Shown here: positions 46,624-57,935 of the stretch, piece by piece | Numbering within the stretch: the first letter of the stretch is position 1 | How the letters are laid out: each line of letters begins with the position of its first letter | Source: Streptomyces sp. NL15-2K | GTDB taxonomy: Bacteria; Actinomycetota; Actinomycetes; Streptomycetales; Streptomycetaceae | Length of the DNA: 64,000 nucleotides | NCBI RefSeq assembly: GCF_030551255.1 | Contig: NZ_CP130630.1 | Coordinates: forward strand, 10,539,001 to 10,603,000 | Direction: 5' to 3' | Made by a program: the position numbers and the translations under genes | Notes under the pieces: generated by a model | Databases searched by the model: none | What the model saw: the letters and a program-made list of their open reading frames with translations, nothing else | What the model was told of the DNA's origin: nothing

Positions 46624-47439
46624 TCAGGACGCCACCGGCTCCCGACACTCGGACACCAGCTCGAGCACGTCAGCCACCTCAGCAACCTCAGACATCTCTG
46701 AAGCGTCAGCTGCCTCAGCCTTCTGCGACCGCCACGTCCGCCACAGCCACAGGATGTCCCGCCCGAACGACCAGACCAGCAGGCCCAGCGCCGTTGCGAC
46801 GACCGCGAACGTCGCCACGTACGGGAGGAGGTTGGACGCGGCCAGGAGCAGCAGGATGCCCTGGAGCGCGGCCACCGTCTTGCGGGCCGTGCTGGGCGGC
46901 AGGGGCGCGTTGAGCCAGGGCAGGGCGCGGGCCGCTGCGACGAAGCCGTAGCGCATGGCGCCGATCAGCAGGACCCACGGGCCCAGCGACATCGAGACGT
47001 ACACGCTGAGCACCAGGATGAGGAACGCGTCGACCTCCATGTCGAAGCGGGCGCCCAGCGGGGTGGAGGTGCCGGTGGCGCGGGCGACCTTGCCGTCGAC
47101 CCCGTCGAGGATCAGGGCCACCGCCGTCAGCCCAACGAAGAGCGTCACCGGCGGTGAGCTCTCGAAGGAGTCCGCGACCAGCGCCGTCACAGCGCCGACC
47201 AGGGTCGCCCGGCCGAGGGTGACCCGGTTGGCGGGGCCGAAGGAGCGCGGCCGCGTGCGATGCAGGGCACGCGAGAGCACCGCCCAGGTCGCGATGGCGA
47301 AGGCGAGGCCGGTCAACCAGCCCGCCGGGCCCATGCCGATCGCCGTGCCGAGCAGGGCCAGCAGCAGGATCTGCAGGCCCGCTCCCACCGCGGTCTCCTG
47401 CTGGACCAGCCTCGCGTCGTAAGTGTTGTTCAGGGCCAC
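46624..47439 (-). CDS. CDP-alcohol phosphatidyltransferase family protein
   Basis: A 271-residue membrane enzyme that transfers a phosphoalcohol from a CDP-alcohol. The complete motif is present: Asp115-Gly116-x2-Ala119-Arg120-x8-Gly129-x3-Asp133-x3-Asp137 (in 'LDGVDGKVARAT ... GARFDMEVD'). About five to six hydrophobic helices surround it. The C-terminal tail (about 245-271) is Glu/Ala/Ser-rich and polar. Start GTG 47439 with GGAGGA upstream. It is transcribed divergently from the MDR dehydrogenase across 107 bp, sharing the gap with the following cluster. In Streptomyces such proteins make phosphatidyl-inositol-type or other lipids; here it could give a lipid or phosphodiester handle to the cluster's product. 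That role is inferred. Confidence 0.9.
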   Translation of the reverse strand: MALNNTYDARLVQQETAVGAGLQILLLALLGTAIGMGPAGWLTGLAFAIATWAVLSRALHRTRPRSFGPANRVTLGRATLVGAVTALVADSFESSPPVTLFVGLTAVALILDGVDGKVARATGTSTPLGARFDMEVDAFLILVLSVYVSMSLGPWVLLIGAMRYGFVAAARALPWLNAPLPPSTARKTVAALQGILLLLAASNLLPYVATFAVVATALGLLVWSFGRDILWLWRTWRSQKAEAADASEMSEVAEVADVLELVSECREPVAS

Positions 47440-47546
47440 CGCACATTCCTCCGGGCCAGGTGACAGAGTCGATCAACGCCGCGTACTGTGCGCGGCCTGT
47501 GCACCTCGGTACGTGAACAGGTTCCCGATCGTTCAGGAGGACGCCG

Positions 47547-48530
47547 ATGAAGCGCACCGCACGTGCGTTCTGGCTCAGCTCCCCGGGGCAGGGCGAGATA
47601 CGCGACGTGACCCTGCCGGATCCCGCCGAGGACGAGGTCGTCGTCCGCTCGCTGTACTCCGGAGTCAGCCGCGGCACGGAGACCCTCGTCTTCCGCGGCG
47701 GGGTGCCGGAGAGTCAGTACGCGGCCATGCGGGCGCCGTTCCAGGAGGGCGACTTCCCGGGACCGGTGAAGTACGGCTATCTCAACGTCGGGTCGGTGGA
47801 GGAGGGACCGGAGGACCTCGTCGGCCGGACCGTCTTCTGCCTCTACCCGCACCAGAGCCGATACGTCGTTCCGGCGAGCGCCGTGACGCCGGTACCGGAG
47901 TCCGTGCCCGCCGAGCGCGCGATGCTGGCCGGCACCCTGGAGACCGCCGTGAACGCCCTGTGGGACGCCGCGCCGCTGGTCGGCGACCGGATCGCGGTGG
48001 TCGGCGGCGGCATGGTCGGCAGCTCGGTGGCCGCGCTGCTCGCCCGCTTCCCGGGCGTGCGCGTGCAGTTGGTGGACGCCGACCCCGCCCGGGCCAAGAC
48101 CGCCGAGGCACTCGGCGTCGACTTCGCGTCGCCCGGCGACGCCCTCGGCGACTGCGACCTCGTCGTCCACGCCAGCGCCACCGAACAGGGCCTCGCCCGC
48201 TCTCTCGAACTCCTCACCGCCGAGGGCACCGTCCTTGAGCTCAGCTGGTACGGCGACCGGCGGATCAGTCTGCCGCTCGGCGAGGCCTTCCACTCCCGGC
48301 GCCTGGTCCTGCGCAGCAGCCAGGTCGGCTCCGTCTCCCCGGCCCGCCGCTCCAGCCGTACCTACGCCGACCGGCTCGCCCTCGCGCTCGACCTGCTCGG
48401 CGATCCGGCCCTCGACGCCCTCGTCACCGGCGAGTGCGCCTTCGAGGAGCTGCCGGACGTGCTGCCGCGGCTGGCTTCCGGCGAGATCCCCGCGCTGTGC
48501 CACCGGGTCCGCTACGACGGCCGCGCCTGA
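47547..48530 (+). CDS. MDR-family (zinc-type alcohol dehydrogenase-like) oxidoreductase
   Basis: A 327-residue medium-chain dehydrogenase-like protein. The N-terminal catalytic-fold part has 'VRSLYSGVSRGTETLVFRGGVPESQY' and 'VKYGYLNVGSVEEGPEDLVGRTVFCLYPHQSRYVVPASAV'. The Rossmann part has 'DRIAVVGGGMVGSSVAALLARF' (GxGxxG) followed by 'VQLVDADPAR'. The usual Cys and His zinc ligands are not evident ('YSGVSRGTE' lacks the Cys), so it is probably zinc-independent. ATG 47547 with CAGGAGGA upstream. It is followed by the IS110 element and then the PTPS-like gene on the same strand, so it was probably once contiguous with that operon. Likely NAD(P)H-dependent reduction or oxidation of a cluster intermediate. 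Confidence 0.85.
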   Translation: MKRTARAFWLSSPGQGEIRDVTLPDPAEDEVVVRSLYSGVSRGTETLVFRGGVPESQYAAMRAPFQEGDFPGPVKYGYLNVGSVEEGPEDLVGRTVFCLYPHQSRYVVPASAVTPVPESVPAERAMLAGTLETAVNALWDAAPLVGDRIAVVGGGMVGSSVAALLARFPGVRVQLVDADPARAKTAEALGVDFASPGDALGDCDLVVHASATEQGLARSLELLTAEGTVLELSWYGDRRISLPLGEAFHSRRLVLRSSQVGSVSPARRSSRTYADRLALALDLLGDPALDALVTGECAFEELPDVLPRLASGEIPALCHRVRYDGRA

Positions 48531-48617
48531 CACACCGGTTCACCTCCGGTTCCATTTCCGTGCCGTCTGCTCAGGGCAAGAGCGCCTAATGGGAGCTGTC
48601 GGGTCGTAGAGACTCGG

Positions 48618-48773
48618 TGCTGTAGCCGCCAGTGGGTGAGCACTCACGCCGCCGGAAGTATCCGACTTCTGAGGTCAGACCGTGCCCCTGCTGGTCGGCC
48701 GGGAGGCCAGACCGTTGATGGGGTGGCGTGCCCGCCGGGCAGTGGGGCGTGAGCACTGGATCCATTAGGCCGC
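48618..48773 (+). ncRNA. Possible IS110 bridge-RNA region
   Basis: The non-coding left end before the transposase contains several hairpins: GTGAG-cac-CTCAC-like (about 48640-48653), GGTCGGCC-ggga-GGCCAGACC (about 48696-48714) and TGCCCGCCGGGCA (about 48730-48742). In IS110 elements this region is known to encode the guide ('bridge') RNA. Structure and boundaries here are inferred from position and simple pairing only. Confidence 0.25.
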
Positions 48774-50054
48774 GTGCCGCGCCTTCCGCGGGCTGCACGG
48801 AGCGAAGTACCGGACTGGGAGGGTGAGTTGCTGCTGATCGGCGATGACTGGGCCGAAGACCACCATGATGTCGAGGTCCAGGACGAGGCGGGCCGGAAAC
48901 TGGCCGTGGCGAGGCTGTCCGAGGGCGTGGAGGGGATCGCGAAGCTGCACGAGCTCGTTGCGAAGCACGGCGGCGAGGACCTTGATCCGGCCGGGGTGGT
49001 GATCGGGATCGAGACCGACCGTGGTTCGTGGGTGCAGGCGCTGATCGCCTCCGGCTACCGGGTCTATGCCATCAACCCCCGGCAGGCCGCCCGGTTCAAG
49101 GAGCGGTACGGCTCCTCCGGTGCCAAGAGCGACAAGGGCGACGCGCACGCGCTGGCCGACATGGTCCGCATCGACCGGGACCAGCTGCGTCCGGTGGCCG
49201 GGGACAGCGAGCAGGCCCAGGCCGTCAAGGTCGTCGCCCGCGCCCACCAGACCTTGATCTGGGAACGCACCCGCACGTTCCAGCGGCTGCGCAGCACGCT
49301 GCGCGAGTACTTCCCCGCCGCCCTGCACGCCTACGCGGATCTCACGCTGACCAGCACGGACGCGCTAGAACTGCTGATCAAGGCCCCCACCCCGCAGGCC
49401 GGGGCAAAGCTGACCCGCACCCAGATCACCGCCGTCCTGGCCCGCGCCCGCCGGCACAACCGGGACGCGAAGGCAGCCACGATCATCACCGCGCTGCGCG
49501 AGAAGCAACTCGGCCTGCCCGAGCCGGTCACCGCCGCCTACGCGGCCACCGCCACCGCCCACGCGAAGCTGCTGATCGCGCTGAACGAGCAGATAACCGA
49601 CCTGGAAGGGCAGGTGAAGGCCCATTTTCTGAAGCACCCGGACGCTGAGATCTACCTCTCGATGCCCGGCATCGCGGAGATCACCGGCGCCCGGGTGCTC
49701 GCCGAGTTCGGGGACGACCCCACCCGCTACGCGTCCGCGAAGGCCCGCAAGAACTACGCCGGCACCAGCCCGATCACCCGGGCTTCCGGCAAGAGCCACA
49801 CCGTCCAGGCCCGCTACGTCCGCAACAACCGCCTCGCCGACGCGCTGCAGACCCAGGCGTTCTCCGCCCTGCGGGCATCACCCGGCGCCCGTCGCTACTA
49901 CGACAAGCAACGCGCCCGCGAAGCCGGCTACAACCCCGCCCTGCGGCAGCTCGGCAACCGCCTCGTCGGCATCCTCCACGGATGCCTCAAGACCCGAACC
50001 CTCTACGACGAAGCGACCGCCTGGTCACACCACGCCCACACCCCTGCCACTTGA
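48774..50054 (+). CDS. IS110-family transposase (DEDD recombinase)
   Basis: A 426-codon frame. The N-terminal RuvC-like domain has the first Asp in 'LLIGDDWAEDHHDVEVQDEAG', Glu in 'VVIGIETDRGSWVQALI', and Asp residues in 'AKSDKGDAHALADMVRIDRDQL', the DEDD set. The C-terminal transposase_20 domain has 'YLSMPGIAEITGARVLAEFGDDP' and 'NYAGTSPITRASGKSH', with the conserved Ser. Two starts are possible: GTG 48774 (no ribosome site) or TTG 48828 just behind GGGAGGGTGAG. The latter gives 408 residues and the normal 'LLIGDDW' beginning. The gene appears intact, so the element may be mobile. Confidence 0.9.
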   Translation: MPRLPRAARSEVPDWEGELLLIGDDWAEDHHDVEVQDEAGRKLAVARLSEGVEGIAKLHELVAKHGGEDLDPAGVVIGIETDRGSWVQALIASGYRVYAINPRQAARFKERYGSSGAKSDKGDAHALADMVRIDRDQLRPVAGDSEQAQAVKVVARAHQTLIWERTRTFQRLRSTLREYFPAALHAYADLTLTSTDALELLIKAPTPQAGAKLTRTQITAVLARARRHNRDAKAATIITALREKQLGLPEPVTAAYAATATAHAKLLIALNEQITDLEGQVKAHFLKHPDAEIYLSMPGIAEITGARVLAEFGDDPTRYASAKARKNYAGTSPITRASGKSHTVQARYVRNNRLADALQTQAFSALRASPGARRYYDKQRAREAGYNPALRQLGNRLVGILHGCLKTRTLYDEATAWSHHAHTPAT

Positions 50055-50094
50055 CCCCCAACGACATGGGGTGTCTGACCTGAGAAAAGAGTGA

Positions 50095-51796
<1,702 letters not shown>

Positions 51797-51800
<4 letters not shown>

Positions 51801-52885
51801 GGAAGATGGCGATGACACAGCACGCGGGCAGGATTCCGGCCCAGCCCGGGCCGCGGGAAGCCGCCGAGTCGACGGAGACCTTGGCGTCCCGTACCGAGTC
51901 GACGCAAACCGTCGTGGCGGGCGCCGAGTCGGCCGCAGCCTGGATGGCCGGTGCCGAGCCGGTGGAAACCGAAACCGTCATCCCCGGCGCCGGCCCCATC
52001 CTCCGCGCCGGCGAGCGGCCCACCGTACGACTGCGGGACGCGGGCCCCGACGACCCGCCGCGCTACGCCCCGGAGTGGCTGGAGCTGCGGGAGGGCGCCG
52101 ACGCGGCCGCGCGGGCGCCGGAGCTGCTCGATCCGCTGCGGATCCGGCTCGCCAATCTGCCGGGACGGGCCGACGGGGTGGTCGTGCACGACCTGGGCTG
52201 CGGCACGGGTTCGATGGGCCGCTGGCTGGCCTCCCGCCTGGACGGCCCCCAGCACTGGATCCTGCACGACCGCGATCCCTACCTGCTCCACTTCGCCGCT
52301 GTCGCCTCCCCGCGCTCGTCCGCCGACGGCAGCCGGGTCACGGTGGAGACCCGGCGCGGTGACGTCGCCCGGCTCACCCCCGACGCCCTGGCCGGCGCCT
52401 CGCTGGTGACGGCCTCCGCGCTGCTCGATGTCCTCACCCGCGAGGAGATCCACGCTCTCGCCGCCGCCTGCACCGGCGCCGGCTGCCCGGCCCTGCTGAC
52501 GCTCTCCGTGGCCGGCCGCGTGGAACTGACCCCGTCCGACCCGCTGGACGAGGAGATCGCCGAGGCGTTCAACGAGCATCAGCGCCGGGACGGACTGCTG
52601 GGCCCGGACGCCGTCAACGTGGCGTGCGAGGCCTTCTCCGAACGCGGTGCGACCGTACGGCTGCACCCGAGCCCCTGGCGGCTCGGCCCCGCCGAGTCCG
52701 TGCTGACGGCACAGTGGCTGCGCGGCTGGGTCGGCGCGGCCGTCGAACAGCGCCCCGAGTTGAAGGCCCGCGCGGAACGGTATCTGCGGGAGCGACTCGA
52801 AGCCTGCGCGGCGGGGGAGCTGAGGGTCGTGGTCCACCACAGCGACCTGCTCGCGCTGTCCCGGCCCACGGGCGGGGCGTCATGA
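51797..52885 (+). CDS. Class I SAM-dependent methyltransferase with repetitive N-terminus
   Basis: A 362-residue methyltransferase. The SAM motif I is 'GVVVHDLGCGTGSMGRWLASRL' (about residue 130), followed by 'HWILHDRDPYLL' (motif II acidic residue) and 'ASLVTASALLDVLTREEI' (motif IV-V region). The first 65-70 residues are unrelated to the fold and contain four decapeptide units starting with Glu (ESTETLASRT, ESTQTVVAGA and so on). ATG overlaps the glycosyltransferase stop, and its own stop overlaps the next ATG, so GT, MT and membrane protein are coupled. The methyl acceptor is unknown. Confidence 0.88.
51866..51985 (+). repeat. Four 30-bp in-frame repeats in the methyltransferase gene
   Basis: Units begin GAGTCGACGGAGACC at 51866, then at 51896, 51926 and 51956, with growing divergence. 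They encode 10-residue repeats with Glu at position 1 and Ala/Thr/Gly-rich tails. Repeat number could vary between strains. Confidence 0.65.
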
Positions 52886-54219
52886 GCGTGGAGACGGTGC
52901 GGGCGTGGGTCGTGCGGCCCGACGCGGACCAGCGGGTGAGCCGCGTGCGGTCCGCCGTGCCGCTCGTCCCGCACGGACAGAAGAAGGTGGCCCGCACCGA
53001 CGCGGCCGTCTCCGAGGCCCGGATCGGCGTGATCGTGTCCGAGGCCCGTACGGACGCCGCCCCGGAGGCATCCCGGGTCCGCGCCGTTCTGCGCACGCTC
53101 CTGGCGCGCGTCAACTCCCGCGCCGTACGTACCCACTTCGGCACCGTCGCCGGCGTCGCCATCCTCGCCGTACTGCTGTGGCGCATGGGCACCGGCGTCT
53201 TCGTGGACGGGCTGCGGCGGATCGACGGACCTACGCTGCTGGTGGCGCTCGGCGTCGGCCTGGTCACCACCGTGTTCAGCGCCTGGCGCTGGCAGTTGGT
53301 GGCCCGGGGCCTGAAGATCCGGCTGCCGCTCGGCCCGGCCGTGGCCGACTACTACCGCGCGCTGTTCCTGAACGCGGCCCTGCCCGGCGGTGTCCTCGGC
53401 GACGTCCACCGGGCGGTACGGCACGGGCAGAGCGCCGGCGACCTCGGCCGAGGTGTCCGCTCGGTCGTCCTCGAACGGGCCGCGGGACAGGCCGTGCTGG
53501 CCGTCGTCGGCGTGGCGGTGCTGCTGACCATGCCGTCGCCCGTGCTGGCCGACACCCGGCAGCTCGCCCCGCTGGTCGGTCTCGCCGCGCTGGGTGCGCT
53601 CGCGGTCGTCGCGGCCCTGCGGATGAACCGGACGCCCTCCCGCCGGGGACGGGCCCTGCGCGCGAGTCTCGGCGAGGCCCGCGAGGGCCTGCTGTCCCGC
53701 CGGAACTGGCCGGGCGTCGCCCTCTCCTCGGCCGTCGTCCTCTCAGGCCACCTCGCGATGTTCGTCGTAGCCGCCCGGGTCGCCGGATCCGCCGCCTCCG
53801 CCGCCGTCCTGCTGCCGCTCGCGGTCCTCGCGCTGCTCGCCATGAGCCTGCCGCTGAACGTCGGCGGCTGGGGACCCCGCGAGGGCGTCACCGCCTGGGC
53901 GTTCGGCGCCGCCGGCCTGGGCGCGAGCAGCGGACTGGCGGTCGCCGTGGTGTACGGCGTGCTCAGCTTCGTGGCGAGTCTGCCGGGGGCCGTCGTCCTG
54001 GTCGCCCGCTGGTACACGGGCCTGCGCGGCGCCGGCGCCGGGGCCCGGGCCGTCGTGACGGACCCGGAACCCCGCTTGGCACCGGACGGTCACTGCTCGG
54101 GCGTCGAAGTGAGCAGCGAGAAATACGACTCGAAGGAATCGGCGAGGCTCGCCAGCAGTTCCTTCCCCTTTTCCGCGGATCCCAGGGAAGGACGGCCAAT
54201 GACGCCCGAATCGGTATAG
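52882..54219 (+). CDS. Lysylphosphatidylglycerol synthase TM-region-like (UPF0104) membrane protein
   Basis: A 445-residue protein with about 75 cytoplasmic residues and then eight or so helices of the flippase-like LPG synthase transmembrane family ('VAGVAILAVLLWRMGTG', 'LVTTVFSAWRWQLVARGL', 'YRALFLNAALPGGVLGDVHRAVRHG', 'SVVLERAAGQAVLAVVGVAVLL', 'MSLPLNVGGWGPREGVTAWAFGAAGL'). The 'PGGVLGD' and 'ER' elements are conserved in this family, whose members often move lipids or lipid-linked products. ATG overlaps the methyltransferase stop. Its last 43 codons lie antisense to the creatininase gene. It may flip or anchor the cluster's product; this is an inference. Confidence 0.87.
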   Translation: MSVETVRAWVVRPDADQRVSRVRSAVPLVPHGQKKVARTDAAVSEARIGVIVSEARTDAAPEASRVRAVLRTLLARVNSRAVRTHFGTVAGVAILAVLLWRMGTGVFVDGLRRIDGPTLLVALGVGLVTTVFSAWRWQLVARGLKIRLPLGPAVADYYRALFLNAALPGGVLGDVHRAVRHGQSAGDLGRGVRSVVLERAAGQAVLAVVGVAVLLTMPSPVLADTRQLAPLVGLAALGALAVVAALRMNRTPSRRGRALRASLGEAREGLLSRRNWPGVALSSAVVLSGHLAMFVVAARVAGSAASAAVLLPLAVLALLAMSLPLNVGGWGPREGVTAWAFGAAGLGASSGLAVAVVYGVLSFVASLPGAVVLVARWYTGLRGAGAGARAVVTDPEPRLAPDGHCSGVEVSSEKYDSKESARLASSSFPFSADPREGRPMTPESV

Positions 54220-54851
54220 GCGGACATTCCGGCGGTGAGTAGATGACGGCGGTCGTCCGCGACGAAATCGGCGGACTCATAACCGGGTCGGACCAATTCG
54301 GGATGGGCGTGCAGAAGGATGGAGGTCTCGATTTCCCCCGCGTGCATGTCGGTCAGTAGCGAGGTCGCGACACCGGCCCGCTCCCGCGCCGCCTCCCAGT
54401 CCTCCGGGGCCGGGAAGAGCGCCATCCGCTCACCACGCGCGGAGGACTCCTGGACGACATTGCCCAGGACGTAGTTCCCGCCGTGCCCGTTGACCACGAC
54501 CAGGGCCTCGACGCCCGACCGGCGCAGCGACGCCGCTATGTCCCGTACCACCGCGTGAAGGGTCACGGAGGAGATGCTGACGGTTCCCGGCCAGTCCGCG
54601 TGCTCGTGCGAGCAGGCGATGGTCACCGGAGGAAGGAGGTGCACGGGGTACGCGGCGGCGATCTCCCGTGCGACGGCGCAGGCGACGAGCGTGTCGGTCG
54701 CCAGCGGGAGGTACGGGCCGTGCTGCTCGAAGCTGCCGACCGGAAGAACGGCCACCTGCGTTGAGACGCCCGCCGCGCGCGTCCGTACGTCTTCCGTAGT
54801 GTCCGCCGGCACCAGACCGTATGCCGCCGACCGTATTCCCGAACCACTCAT
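54090..54851 (-). CDS. Creatininase-family amidohydrolase, probable FAPy deformylase (ArfB-like)
   Basis: A 253-residue creatininase-fold hydrolase. Metal ligands are visible: Glu42 and His44 ([12 protein letters not shown]), Asp53 (LATDT), His123 ([10 protein letters not shown]) and Glu173 ([10 protein letters not shown]). Creatinine itself is an unlikely substrate. Archaeal FAPy deformylases (ArfB), which remove the formyl group from the GTP-derived formamidopyrimidine, belong to this family. The gene stands head to head, 39 bp apart, with a cyclohydrolase paralogue predicted to stop at exactly that compound. The 3' end overlaps the membrane protein gene by 130 bp on the opposite strand. 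The deformylase role is inferred from context and family; mycofactocin-type or other amidases are alternatives. Confidence 0.85.
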
Positions 54852-54890
54852 CTTTCCACGGCCTTTCGTCTCTGCTTAGGAACCAGATCA

Positions 54891-55549
54891 TGACAGATAA
54901 AATTGGCGTGCTCGGCAAGAAGTCGCCACAGCGCACCGGCGTGGAGCGCGTGGTGAATGCCCCGCTGCCCACCGTGTACGGGAATTTCCAGGCGGTCGGC
55001 TACCTCGACCACGATCGCGGTGACGAGCAAGTCGCCCTGGTCTACGGTGACATCGCCACGGACGGCGTCCTGACCCGGCTGCATTCCGAGTGCCTGACCG
55101 GCGACGCCTTCGGATCCCAGCACTGCGAGTGCGGCGACCAGCTCGACTCCGCACTGCGCGCCGTGGTCGCCGAAGGCAGCGGTGTCGTCGTCTACCTCAG
55201 AGGGCACGAGGGGCGGGGCATCGGCCTGCTCGCCAAGCTGCGGGCGATGGCCCTGCAGGCGGAGGGTCTGGACACGGTCGAGGCGAACCTGGCGCTCGGC
55301 CTGCCGGTGGACGCCCGCGACTACGGCGTCGCCGCGGGGATCCTGCGTGACCTGGGCGTGAACTCCGTACGCCTGATGTCCAACAACCCGCGCAAGCGCG
55401 AGGCGTTGCTGCGGCACGGCATCCAGGTCGCCGAGCAGGTGCCGCTGCTGATACAGCCGTGCGAGAGCAACATCACCTATCTGCGCACGAAGCGGGAGCG
55501 GTTGGACCACCACCTGCCCCATCTGGACGCGGTGGCACACCTGTCCTGA
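54891..55549 (+). CDS. GTP cyclohydrolase II paralogue with Tyr-to-Met change (FAPy-forming type)
   Basis: A 219-residue GTP cyclohydrolase II homologue. Zinc ligands Cys68, Cys79 and Cys81 ('[18 protein letters not shown]') are intact, as are '[15 protein letters not shown]' and '[17 protein letters not shown]'. Residue 120 is Met ('KLRAMALQ') where E. coli RibA has Tyr105. By established work on Streptomyces coelicolor paralogues, Met at this place gives the formamidopyrimidine nucleotide instead of the fully deformylated riboflavin precursor. The length and numbering (Met120) match that paralogue (SCO6655, from memory). No other riboflavin genes are nearby, so it is not a housekeeping RibA. 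ATG 54891 is divergent from the creatininase gene. Confidence 0.92.
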
Positions 55550-55726: not shown

Positions 55727-56788
55727 ATGACCGAGCTTCATTTGTGGCTGCGCCATGAGGCCCGTACCACCGAGCGGCGCACCCCGATCGTGCCGTCCGA
55801 CGCCCGGCGGCTCGTCGACAGCGGAGTGACACTCACCGTCGAGGAGTCCCCGCAGCGGATCTTCCCGATCGAGGAGTACGAGGCGGCCGGCTGCCGGGTA
55901 GCTCCGGCGGGCTCCTGGGTGTCGGCGCCGGCCGACGCCGTCGTCCTCGGACTGAAGGAACTCCCCGACGAGCCGGCCCAGTTGCAACACCGGCACATCT
56001 TCTTCGGGCACGCCTTCAAGCGGCAGCCGGGAGCGGCCGAGCTGCTCGGGCGGTTCGCCGCCGGGGGAGGGGCGCTGTTCGACCTCGAGTACCTCGTGGA
56101 CGATTCCGGGCGCAGGCTCGCCGCTTTCGGTTTCTGGGCGGGGTATCTGGGCGCCGCTCTGGCCGTGCTCCAGCACCGGGGCAGGCTCGTCGCGCCGCTG
56201 ACGCCCACGGTTCAGGAGGAGCTGGACGAGCTTCTCCGACCGGCCGCCGGGGACGAGGAGTTCACGGCGCTGGTGATCGGCGCCCTGGGCCGCAGCGGCC
56301 GGGGTGCGCGCCTGGCCTTCCACACCGCCGGCCTCGAGCCGACGTGCTGGGACCTCGCCGAGACCCGCGACCTGGACCGTCGGGCCCTGCTGGACCACGA
56401 CGTGATGGTGAACGCGGTGCTCGCCATCACCCCGGTCCCGCCCTTCCTCCGGGAGGAGGACCTCGACGACCCGGCCGGCCGGCTGCGCACCCTGTGCGAC
56501 GTCACCTGCGACGTCGGCTCGCCCCTGAACGTGCTGCCCGTCTACGACCGCACCACCGACTGGGACGAGCCGGCGAGGCGCCTGCGCAAGGAGCCCCCGC
56601 TGGACCTCATCGCCATCGACAACCTGCCGTCCCTGCTGCCCCTGGAGTCCAGCACCGGTTTCTCGGTATCGCTGCTGCCCCAGCTGCTGGAGTTCGGTGT
56701 CGGCGGGCCGTGGGGGCGCTGTCTCGACCGGTTCCATCGGGCCTGCCGTGAACTCGGCATCGTGGAAGGGGAGTCCCGCCATGACTGA
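55727..56788 (+). CDS. Saccharopine dehydrogenase (lysine-forming, LYS1-like) family protein
   Basis: A 353-residue protein of the alanine/saccharopine dehydrogenase family. N-terminal 'LWLRHEARTTERRTPIVPSDARRLVDSGVTLTVEESPQRIFPIEEYEAAGC' (read in pieces: RxExxxxExRxP, VEESxxRxFP) is typical of LYS1-type saccharopine dehydrogenases. 'GHAFKRQPGAAELLGRFAAGGG', 'LFDLEYLVDD' and 'LVIGALGRSGRGA' (nucleotide-binding) follow. The enzyme normally interconverts saccharopine with lysine and 2-oxoglutarate. Start ATG 55727. It overlaps the next gene by 8 bp, giving an operon that holds both halves of a saccharopine pathway. Direction (lysine breakdown or a lysine-type biosynthesis) is unknown. Confidence 0.88.
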   Translation: MTELHLWLRHEARTTERRTPIVPSDARRLVDSGVTLTVEESPQRIFPIEEYEAAGCRVAPAGSWVSAPADAVVLGLKELPDEPAQLQHRHIFFGHAFKRQPGAAELLGRFAAGGGALFDLEYLVDDSGRRLAAFGFWAGYLGAALAVLQHRGRLVAPLTPTVQEELDELLRPAAGDEEFTALVIGALGRSGRGARLAFHTAGLEPTCWDLAETRDLDRRALLDHDVMVNAVLAITPVPPFLREEDLDDPAGRLRTLCDVTCDVGSPLNVLPVYDRTTDWDEPARRLRKEPPLDLIAIDNLPSLLPLESSTGFSVSLLPQLLEFGVGGPWGRCLDRFHRACRELGIVEGESRHD

Positions 56789-57935
56789 CCTGGTTCCCGC
56801 GAGTGGCACCGTGCACTGGATCGGCGCCGGACTGTCCACCGGCAGCGGTCTGGCCCGGCTGTGCGAGACGGCCGGGCGGGTACGGCTGTGGCACCGCACC
56901 GAGGAACGCGCCGCCGAGGCCCTCGACCGGCTGGACCTGGCCGGACGCGCCGAGCCCCGCGCGTACACGCTCGACGCGCTGACGGCCGAACTGGCGCCCG
57001 GGGACGTGGTCGTGTCGATGCTGCCCGCCCCGGAGCACGCCGCGATCCTCGCCGCCTGCCTGCGGAAGAAGGCGCACTTCGCCTGCTCCAGCTATGTGTC
57101 GGACGCGGTATTGGAGCAGGTGCCCGTGGCCGTGAAGGCCGGCATCGTCGTCCTCACCGAGGCCGGCCTCGACCCGGGCATCGACCACCTCTTCGCCCAC
57201 AGCCTCGTCGCCCGCGCCCGGGAGGCGATCGGCGACGGTACGGCGGCCTCGTACGGCCTCACCTCCTACTGCGGCGGCGTCCCCGCCGTACCCAACGCCT
57301 TCAGGTACCGCTTCAGCTGGGCACCCGCCGGAGTCCTGAACGCCCTGCGCTCGCCCGCCCGTTACCTCGAGGACGGCCGCGAGACCACCGCCGACCGGCC
57401 CTGGGAGGCGACCCGGCGGCACGTCGTCGAAGGCGAGGTCTTCGAGGTCTACCCCAACCGCGACAGCGTGCCCTTCGTCGCGCAGTACGGCCTGCCGCCC
57501 GCCTGGGGGGCGCGGACCTTCGTGCGCGGCACCCTGCGTCTGGAGGGCTGGCTGCGGGCCTGGGAGGACGTCTTCGCGGAGCTGCGCACCGGCGACGACG
57601 CCCGGATCGCCGCGCTGGCGGAGGAACTGGCGGCGAAGTACCCCACCACGGACGCCGACCGCGACCGGGTCGTCCTCGCCGTGTCGCTGGACGTGCGCGA
57701 CGGGGCGGGGAAGGAGTGGTCGGGCGGCTACCTCCTGGACCTGGTGGGCGACGAGGAGGAGAGCGCGATGGCCCGCTGTGTCTCCCGCACGCTCGCACTC
57801 GGCGTCCGGCACGTCCTGGAGGGCTCGCTGCCGCCGGGCCTGAACCGCGCCGCCGAGACCGCGGCCCGGTCCGAGGAGTGGCTCGGCGAACTCGCCCGCG
57901 AGAGAGTCCACTTCACGCTCCGGGTCGATCAGTAG
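56781..57935 (+). CDS. Saccharopine reductase/dehydrogenase (LYS9-like) family protein
   Basis: A 384-residue saccharopine-reductase-type dehydrogenase. The Rossmann start is 'TVHWIGAGLSTGSGLARLCE' (GxGxxxG), then 'LAPGDVVVSMLPAPEHAAILAACLRKKAHFACSSYVSD', and 'VLTEAGLDPGIDHLFAHSL', which is the family's signature ('GLDPGIDH'). 'SYCGGVPAVPNAFRYRFSWAPAGVL' is equally typical (CGGxPAP). These signatures are those of the glutamate-semialdehyde-side saccharopine enzyme. ATG 56781 with GGGGAG upstream, overlapping the LYS1-like gene. The pair could convert lysine to aminoadipate semialdehyde or run the reverse condensation. The 3' end overlaps the convergent membrane protein by 7 bp. Confidence 0.92.
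   Translation: MTDLVPASGTVHWIGAGLSTGSGLARLCETAGRVRLWHRTEERAAEALDRLDLAGRAEPRAYTLDALTAELAPGDVVVSMLPAPEHAAILAACLRKKAHFACSSYVSDAVLEQVPVAVKAGIVVLTEAGLDPGIDHLFAHSLVARAREAIGDGTAASYGLTSYCGGVPAVPNAFRYRFSWAPAGVLNALRSPARYLEDGRETTADRPWEATRRHVVEGEVFEVYPNRDSVPFVAQYGLPPAWGARTFVRGTLRLEGWLRAWEDVFAELRTGDDARIAALAEELAAKYPTTDADRDRVVLAVSLDVRDGAGKEWSGGYLLDLVGDEEESAMARCVSRTLALGVRHVLEGSLPPGLNRAAETAARSEEWLGELARERVHFTLRVDQ

Follow-up and report, generated by a model that had tools for sequence, protein, structure and literature searches.

A conserved actinobacterial gene block that may split the GTP cyclohydrolase II reaction outside riboflavin synthesis

Introduction

What use does a bacterium make of a GTP cyclohydrolase that halts before its last step? 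The question is raised by a block of genes at positions 46624..55549 of a 64,000-nucleotide stretch of Streptomyces sp. NL15-2K (hereafter the window; genome size 12.4 Mb), where a paralogue of GTP cyclohydrolase II (GCHII) stands head-to-head with a creatininase-family hydrolase. The tyrosine at the position of E. coli Tyr105 is needed for the late deformylation step of RibA, and the paralogue lacks it, as does SCO6655 of Streptomyces coelicolor, a protein that in work by Spoonamore et al. in 2006 reportedly released the formamidopyrimidine FAPy, with a Met120Tyr variant gaining the later step. Neither the creatininase nor the product is said to have been assigned in that work, and we know of no physiological role given to the FAPy-forming Streptomyces cyclohydrolase since its first description. 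Here, we use comparison across actinobacteria to argue that the block is likely to encode a dedicated branch from GTP, in which the Tyr-less cyclohydrolase stops at FAPy, the creatininase-family protein deformylates it and a conserved core of enzymes builds a product other than riboflavin.

In this route, the cyclohydrolase would open the imidazole ring of GTP, remove pyrophosphate and release the formamide (FAPy, also called AFRPP), from which the metallohydrolase would strip the formyl group to give formate and 2,5-diamino-6-ribosylamino-4(3H)-pyrimidinone 5'-phosphate (DARoPP). Related clusters would reach DARoPP in one step through a Tyr-containing cyclohydrolase, or rely on the housekeeping RibA for it, and in most clusters of the Tyr type an ArfC-like reductase would turn the ribosyl into a ribityl group. 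A shared core, consisting of a BchC-like dehydrogenase, a zinc-less T-fold protein, a GT4 glycosyltransferase, usually a methyltransferase, a flippase-like protein and a CDP-alcohol transferase, would then yield a glycosylated, methylated and probably lipid-linked compound outside riboflavin synthesis. We infer both catalytic steps in the window strain, the intermediate that they would share and everything downstream of it, the first step from the reported work on SCO6655 and the second from co-variation of the two genes and from the experimentally shown BrbF.

The cyclohydrolase and its altered residues

The two genes at the centre of the argument are these.

54890..55549, plus strand: GCHII paralogue, with Met at the E. 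coli Tyr105 position and a CECG motif; proposed to stop at FAPy
54090..54851, minus strand: creatininase-family hydrolase (PF02633, 216.6 bits), metal ligands intact; proposed FAPy deformylase

The cyclohydrolase belongs to its family by PF00925 (220.6 bits; cut-off 23.3) and TIGR00505 (225.7 bits; cut-off 205.85), and at the Tyr105 position it carries, in place of the Tyr of RibA, the Met of the FAPy-forming SCO6655 type, a residue with the number 120 in SCO6655 itself. Numbering from the first ATG (54821) makes the Met of the window protein Met143, and numbering from an internal ATG (54890) makes it Met120; the latter ATG is probably the real start, since the overlap with the creatininase start then disappears. 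A sequence-only reading of this DNA had described a paralogue with all zinc Cys and a Met for this Tyr, head-to-head with a creatininase whose ligands are intact, and the description stands: all three Cys are present, the Met aligns, the creatininase has E42, H44, D53, H123 and E173, and 38 bp separate the two start codons.

Across the clusters compared, the zinc ligands C91, C102 and C104 are kept in 152 of 153 cyclohydrolase rows, the other being a gap, and the residue at the Tyr105 position is Met in 105, His in 16, Leu in 3, Gln in 1, Tyr in 27 and a gap in 1. The residue between two of the zinc Cys is Glu (CECG) in 125/125 non-Tyr rows and Asp (CDCG) in 27/27 Tyr rows; among further GCHII loci from the same family, which are mostly of the RibBA type, CDCG goes with Tyr in 17 cases out of 17. 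In a tree of 118 cyclohydrolase rows (named loci thinned to every sixth; L005-L018, identical rows and rows of <120 residues excluded), the non-Tyr set forms a single group of 60 rows (support 98/79) that adjoins the RibBA type, 24 of the 27 Tyr-type cluster enzymes lie in another, monofunctional clade, and those of L177, L182 and L230 sit on long branches near the RibBA side. At least two cyclohydrolase lineages therefore serve one downstream gene set.

Since GCHII is a riboflavin enzyme and the window genome holds four PF00925 loci, the pair could in principle be a spare riboflavin supply with unrelated neighbours, which we regard as very improbable. One of the four loci (L001) already groups with the RibBA type, no block protein matches RibB, RibH or RibE over its own length, the only such matches being to the GCHII half of fused RibBA models, and the eight genes travel as a unit, the PTPS-like gene being absent from 7/7 same-genus genomes without a non-Tyr cyclohydrolase. 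The fourth GCHII paralogue of the window genome (G000 C1:973955-974410, L259) is of the Tyr type and has no RibD_C match within the 18 kb fetched.

Coupling of the creatininase to loss of the tyrosine

Wherever a locus has a creatininase and a readable cyclohydrolase, the cyclohydrolase is non-Tyr (125/125), and wherever a readable cyclohydrolase has no creatininase in the fetched region, it is Tyr (27/27), at least two Streptomyces genomes having entered these counts twice; L236 shows a creatininase at a contig end with no cyclohydrolase in view. The five metal ligands are present in 125 or 126 of the 126 creatininase rows, the rest being gaps. On a tree of the core dehydrogenase, PTPS-like protein and glycosyltransferase (GT), the creatininase and non-Tyr traits agree in 98 of 98 scored rows among 107, with 7 changes required for each. 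From the named Streptomyces loci (80) only every eighth, and from the 13 loci L035-L047 only 11, could enter this tree; L161, L186, L187, L222, L231, L235, L236, L243 and L244 were regarded as contig-cut and left unscored. Independent pairs on well-supported branches are concordant in 5 of 5 cases (p 0.0625), and all branches give 7 pairs. Among 32 loci beyond L035-L127 that have both genes, 14 place the PTPS-like gene between the creatininase and cyclohydrolase genes, which are then 4-9 kb apart, so the joint keeping of the two is more than close linkage. The counts and the shared gain and loss on the core tree lend strong comparative support to the idea, advanced by the sequence-only reading, that the two enzymes would together make a deformylated pyrimidine nucleotide.

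A genome-wide search (E<=1e-30), in which 4/4 positive controls were found, returned no creatininase from any of 23 genomes whose fetched cluster region had neither a creatininase nor a readable cyclohydrolase, although the cluster of one of them (G874) keeps a short 52-bit cyclohydrolase remnant and the contig of another (G924) ends early. All 23 have a GCHII elsewhere, a possible source, its type being taken from score and frame length and the residue itself read only in L251-L254, where it is Tyr.

Could FAPy instead keep its formyl group as a building block, with the creatininase acting later on another amide, in a ring closure or opening or in an MftE-like peptide step? Creatininase-family enzymes act on several amides, and the top NCBIfam model for the creatininase is MftE (TIGR03964; 136.2 bits for the window protein, 145.8 bits for that of L164), but the window protein falls short of the MftE cut-off of 172, on which ground a mycofactocin role was dropped. 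Among the Tyr clusters, moreover, the core genes are unchanged and no fetched region contains a creatininase, which is easiest to understand if both routes give one compound. We judge the retained-formyl route unlikely.

Several observations weigh against assigning deformylation to the creatininase. The window protein does not reach the cut-off of the ArfB model (NF033501, 38.8 bits against 180) and scores higher against MftE, so that its sequence alone names no substrate. The replacement of Tyr probably arose once, as all non-Tyr enzymes group together on the gene tree, and many rows are not independent; for this reason the counting of rows as independent was dropped and the independent-pairs test used, but the tree-corrected sign test lies above 0.05, and the 7-change count leans on weakly supported branches. 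Absence of the creatininase from the 27 Tyr loci refers to the fetched region, most Tyr-type genomes having had no genome-wide search. Finally, there is no ArfC-like gene in the window's block, and the reductase homologue elsewhere in the window genome is no evidence for linkage, its family being found also in 17/20 cluster-negative genomes of family f17. As regards the first point, PMC9478397 reports that BrbF of Sinorhizobium meliloti, a creatininase-family protein, deformylates AFRPP to DARoPP by experiment, and that BrbF has no sequence similarity to ArfB; a deformylase need therefore not be close to ArfB. Arrest of the GCHII at the formamide and deformylation by the creatininase are the likeliest roles, given the coupling to Tyr loss together with the reductase found in the Tyr clusters.

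The reductase of the sister clusters

A RibD_C reductase is present in 26 of the 27 Tyr-type loci (PF01872 in the one scanned). The stand-alone reductase of L169 is matched best in NCBIfam by the archaeal 2,5-diamino-6-(ribosylamino)-4(3H)-pyrimidinone 5'-phosphate reductase (128.1 bits; cut-off 186.45), an enzyme whose substrate is what the first two steps are expected to yield, and in three loci the GCHII and RibD_C parts share a single frame beside the PTPS-like gene (L177 12499-14562, L182 11317-12837 and L230 9966-11480, all on the minus strand). Four creatininase-type loci (L046, L047, L158 and L234) also have a reductase, which in the first three is of a more distant type, the top model for L046 being a generic RibD C-terminal domain.

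Outside the window, the same genome has a RibD-like protein with a reductase part beside a Tyr GCHII paralogue (G000 C1:5470869-5473327, L247); its C-terminal part appears deaminase-like from the sequence and gives a weak TadA match. Among 28 Streptomyces genomes, loci of this type occur in 13 of 16 that are cluster-positive, the other 3 having an in-cluster reductase, and in 3 of 12 that are cluster-negative (G349 by weaker split matches only). L247 was dropped as a candidate for the missing reductase of the pathway: the reductase family is widespread in the cluster-negative f17 genomes (17/20) too, besides being found in 24/24 cluster-positive ones, so that its presence says little.

The shared core and its distribution

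The remaining features of the block are as follows.

46624..47439, minus strand: CDP-alcohol phosphotransferase (PF01066, 51.6 bits)
47547..48530, plus strand: MDR-type dehydrogenase, BchC-like (top NCBIfam model BchC, 53.7 bits against a cut-off of 291.25)
about 48588..50074, plus strand: IS110-type element (transposase 48774-50054)
50075..50193, plus strand: conserved 5' leader of the PTPS operon, with a predicted stem over the TTG start codon
50194..50592, plus strand: PTPS-like T-fold protein with a TTG start (PF01242, 83.1 bits)
50589..51800, plus strand: GT4 glycosyltransferase (domain profile match)
about 51797..52885, plus strand: methyltransferase (Methyltransf_25, 26.7 bits against a cut-off of 27)
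52882..54219, plus strand: LPG_synthase_TM or flippase-like membrane protein (domain profile matches)

All the genes that had been named from the sequence (GCHII, creatininase, PTPS-like, GT4, methyltransferase, flippase-like and CDP-alcohol phosphotransferase) are borne out by profile matches, and to them must be added the BchC-like dehydrogenase, a core member that was overlooked. The PTPS-like, GT4, methyltransferase and flippase-like genes each overlap their neighbour by 4 bp.

Conserved co-occurrence of the eight genes across actinobacteria, which the sequence-only reading proposed as a check, is indeed found. Gene order and orientation are identical in 85 of 93 Streptomyces loci (from 13 same-genus genomes and a named collection of 80, at least two genomes being counted in both), and the remaining 8 end at contig edges; outside the genus, where 89 loci were fetched, 2 of them second fetches, the block is present in many families of the class. 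Reading frames in fetched loci were taken from stop to stop. Profile matches over 182 loci, which include contig-cut loci and some genomes fetched twice, number 174 for the PTPS-like protein, 173 for the GT, 172 for the flippase-like protein, 169 for the dehydrogenase, 159 for the CDP-alcohol transferase and 156 for the methyltransferase. Known repeats are L035/L056 and L036/L107, together with L245 and L246, longer fetches of L186 and L187 that were dropped from the residue counts. The full set is not universal in distant loci, L160 and L183 showing only the dehydrogenase, PTPS-like and GT genes.

The PTPS orthologue and a close non-Tyr cyclohydrolase are found in the identical 14 of 21 same-genus genomes. 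At E<=1e-15 the orthologue occurs in 43 of 296 genomes of the class (16/28 of the same genus and 27/268 others), in 31 of 120 genomes of f17 and in 34 of 121 of the order to which G190 belongs; phylum-wide it is rare, with 10 of 396 genomes drawn.

Downstream of the block, at 55727-57935 of the window, lies a pair of genes for an alanine dehydrogenase/PNT-N protein and a saccharopine dehydrogenase, and the same pair is found near the block in many, not all, of the fetched Streptomyces loci.

The PTPS-like protein, its leader and the insertion element

The PTPS-like protein is a full-length orthologue (E 3.5e-81) of SCO6650, whose structure is PDB 3D7J. The sequence-only reading had not remarked that one zinc His and the catalytic Cys position are lost: HGA stands for HGH, with Ala at the Cys position of QueD, in 168 of 169 readable rows, and the two remaining zinc histidines are each kept in 169/169. 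With the motif and the Cys position gone, activity as a PTPS or QueD enzyme is unlikely, and the fold may serve to bind a pterin-like ring. A tetrahydropterin or 7-deazaguanine route, of the tetrahydrobiopterin (BH4) or queuosine type, might seem to be marked by such a gene, given its PF01242 membership and a weak QueD match (36.9 bits; cut-off 89.25). Besides the altered residues, no block protein matches a GTP cyclohydrolase I model in NCBIfam or Pfam, and the motif belongs to none of the PTPS-I, II and III types described in PMC5041015. We consider this the least credible of the alternatives and dropped it because of the lost motif; the pterin-type product put forward from the sequence accordingly has weak support.

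An alignment of 48 Streptomyces sequences, made up of the window and 47 from a thinned set of 66 leaders without the divergent L046, L047 and L158, shows the leader at 50075-50193 to be conserved, and its z-score in the window is -2.74. The CUGAAC of the leader and the GUUCAG at the UUG start codon are complementary, giving a predicted eight-pair stem in which five inner pairs are invariant and the pair 142-267 is A-U in 39 sequences and G-U in 9, changes too few for a covariation test in a stem that is partly coding. No Rfam match was found for the leader at E<=1; its conservation and predicted pairing suggest that it may be an element of translational control.

Between the dehydrogenase gene and this leader sits the IS110-type element, also overlooked by the sequence-only reading. 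An IS110 protein is found in the window strain only, being present in 0 of 182 other loci examined, the 93 Streptomyces loci among them, and the site is empty in relatives such as L048. Within the transposase gene and antisense to it, positions 49661-49742 (minus strand) give a match to the Rfam family Ms_AS-4 below threshold (44.4 bits against a gathering score of 50). Because the element parts the dehydrogenase gene from the PTPS operon, directly upstream of the conserved leader and in this strain alone, the block may be silent or impaired here, a possibility we hold to be real but doubtful, since the insertion is intergenic and disrupts neither a reading frame nor the leader, and the PTPS operon may be transcribed from a promoter of its own.

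A possible membrane link, and expression

A large protein of the sulfatase superfamily, presumably resembling LtaS, is encoded near the cluster in 37 loci, and in 15 of these, all distant, it shares one frame with the CDP-alcohol phosphotransferase. These counts cover the fetched loci other than the window; Pfam PF00884 is reached by 2 of 6 scanned proteins, the others being linked through a profile built from L217, and within L035-L127 the gene is shown by L046 and L047 only. Such neighbours, together with the flippase-like protein, suggest a lipid-linked product, and with the CDP-alcohol transferase, GT and methyltransferase of the block the flippase-like protein would fit a lipid-linked glycoside.

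Assuming consecutive locus tags between SCO6650 (PTPS) and SCO6655 (cyclohydrolase), SCO6652 would be the methyltransferase. In PMC3610822 the log2 MII/MI values of SCO6652 are 0.8, 4.3 and 4.1 at 24, 48 and 72 h, and it is thus raised in aerial and sporulating mycelium. PMC2853524 gives an anticorrelation of expression with predicted flux for SCO6655 (-0.61) and SCO2687 (-0.52).

Taken together, these features can be read as pointing to membrane-anchored actinobacterial cofactors or lipids, nucleoside-like and of a class not seen before, a reading that we offer tentatively, as a whole that is rather less probable than not. In it, the zinc-less T-fold protein and the BchC-like dehydrogenase would condense DARoPP (and its ribityl form); glycosylation and methylation would follow; the CDP-alcohol transferase, with a sugar phosphate as its substrate, would attach the compound to a phospholipid, and the flippase-like protein would carry it across the membrane; the Streptomyces product would be made in aerial hyphae and spores; and the supply module would have been swapped in at least three ways, namely the split FAPy route, the one-step route and the housekeeping RibA.

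Relation to known systems

The closest relative of the window's system is that of SCO6655, which is of the same family and, by locus tags, in the same neighbourhood, SCO6650 being the PTPS orthologue; to this the present analysis adds the class-wide spread, the variants with His, Leu or Gln, the change to CECG and the link with the creatininase. The SCO6650 structure was deposited as an uncharacterized protein and now has a pathway context. In archaea, ArfA (GTP cyclohydrolase III), ArfB and ArfC likewise release FAPy, deformylate it and reduce the ribosyl group, but in the actinobacterial block the first step would fall to a descendant of GCHII, the creatininase stays below the ArfB cut-off, and the reductase stays below the archaeal cut-off and is absent from the window's block. 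BrbF of S. meliloti and Brucella is likewise a creatininase-family enzyme that converts AFRPP to DARoPP, but it serves riboflavin synthesis, whereas the window's proposed deformylase has a matching cyclohydrolase next to it, in a cluster that is not one for riboflavin; the authors of the BrbF work state that the AFRPP-making enzyme of their bacteria is yet to be discovered (PMC9478397).

The sequence-only reading called the product undescribed, and among the open-access literature matches listed, subscription papers lying outside the scope, no description of the pathway or product was found; the label does not extend to SCO6655 and SCO6650, both of which had already been studied. As FAPy formation by SCO6655 was reported earlier, only a part of the picture is new; an Arf-like split of the GCHII reaction outside riboflavin synthesis is well supported by the comparison, though short of proof.

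Conclusions

The comparison supplies a partner enzyme for the FAPy-forming cyclohydrolase, a second candidate switch residue (Glu/Asp), natural His, Leu and Gln variants, and sister clusters that would do with one enzyme what is here divided between two, and with these in hand the question of physiological role can be put to a direct test. A lipid-linked product, if that is what the block makes, would represent a new type of membrane molecule shared by several actinobacterial families.

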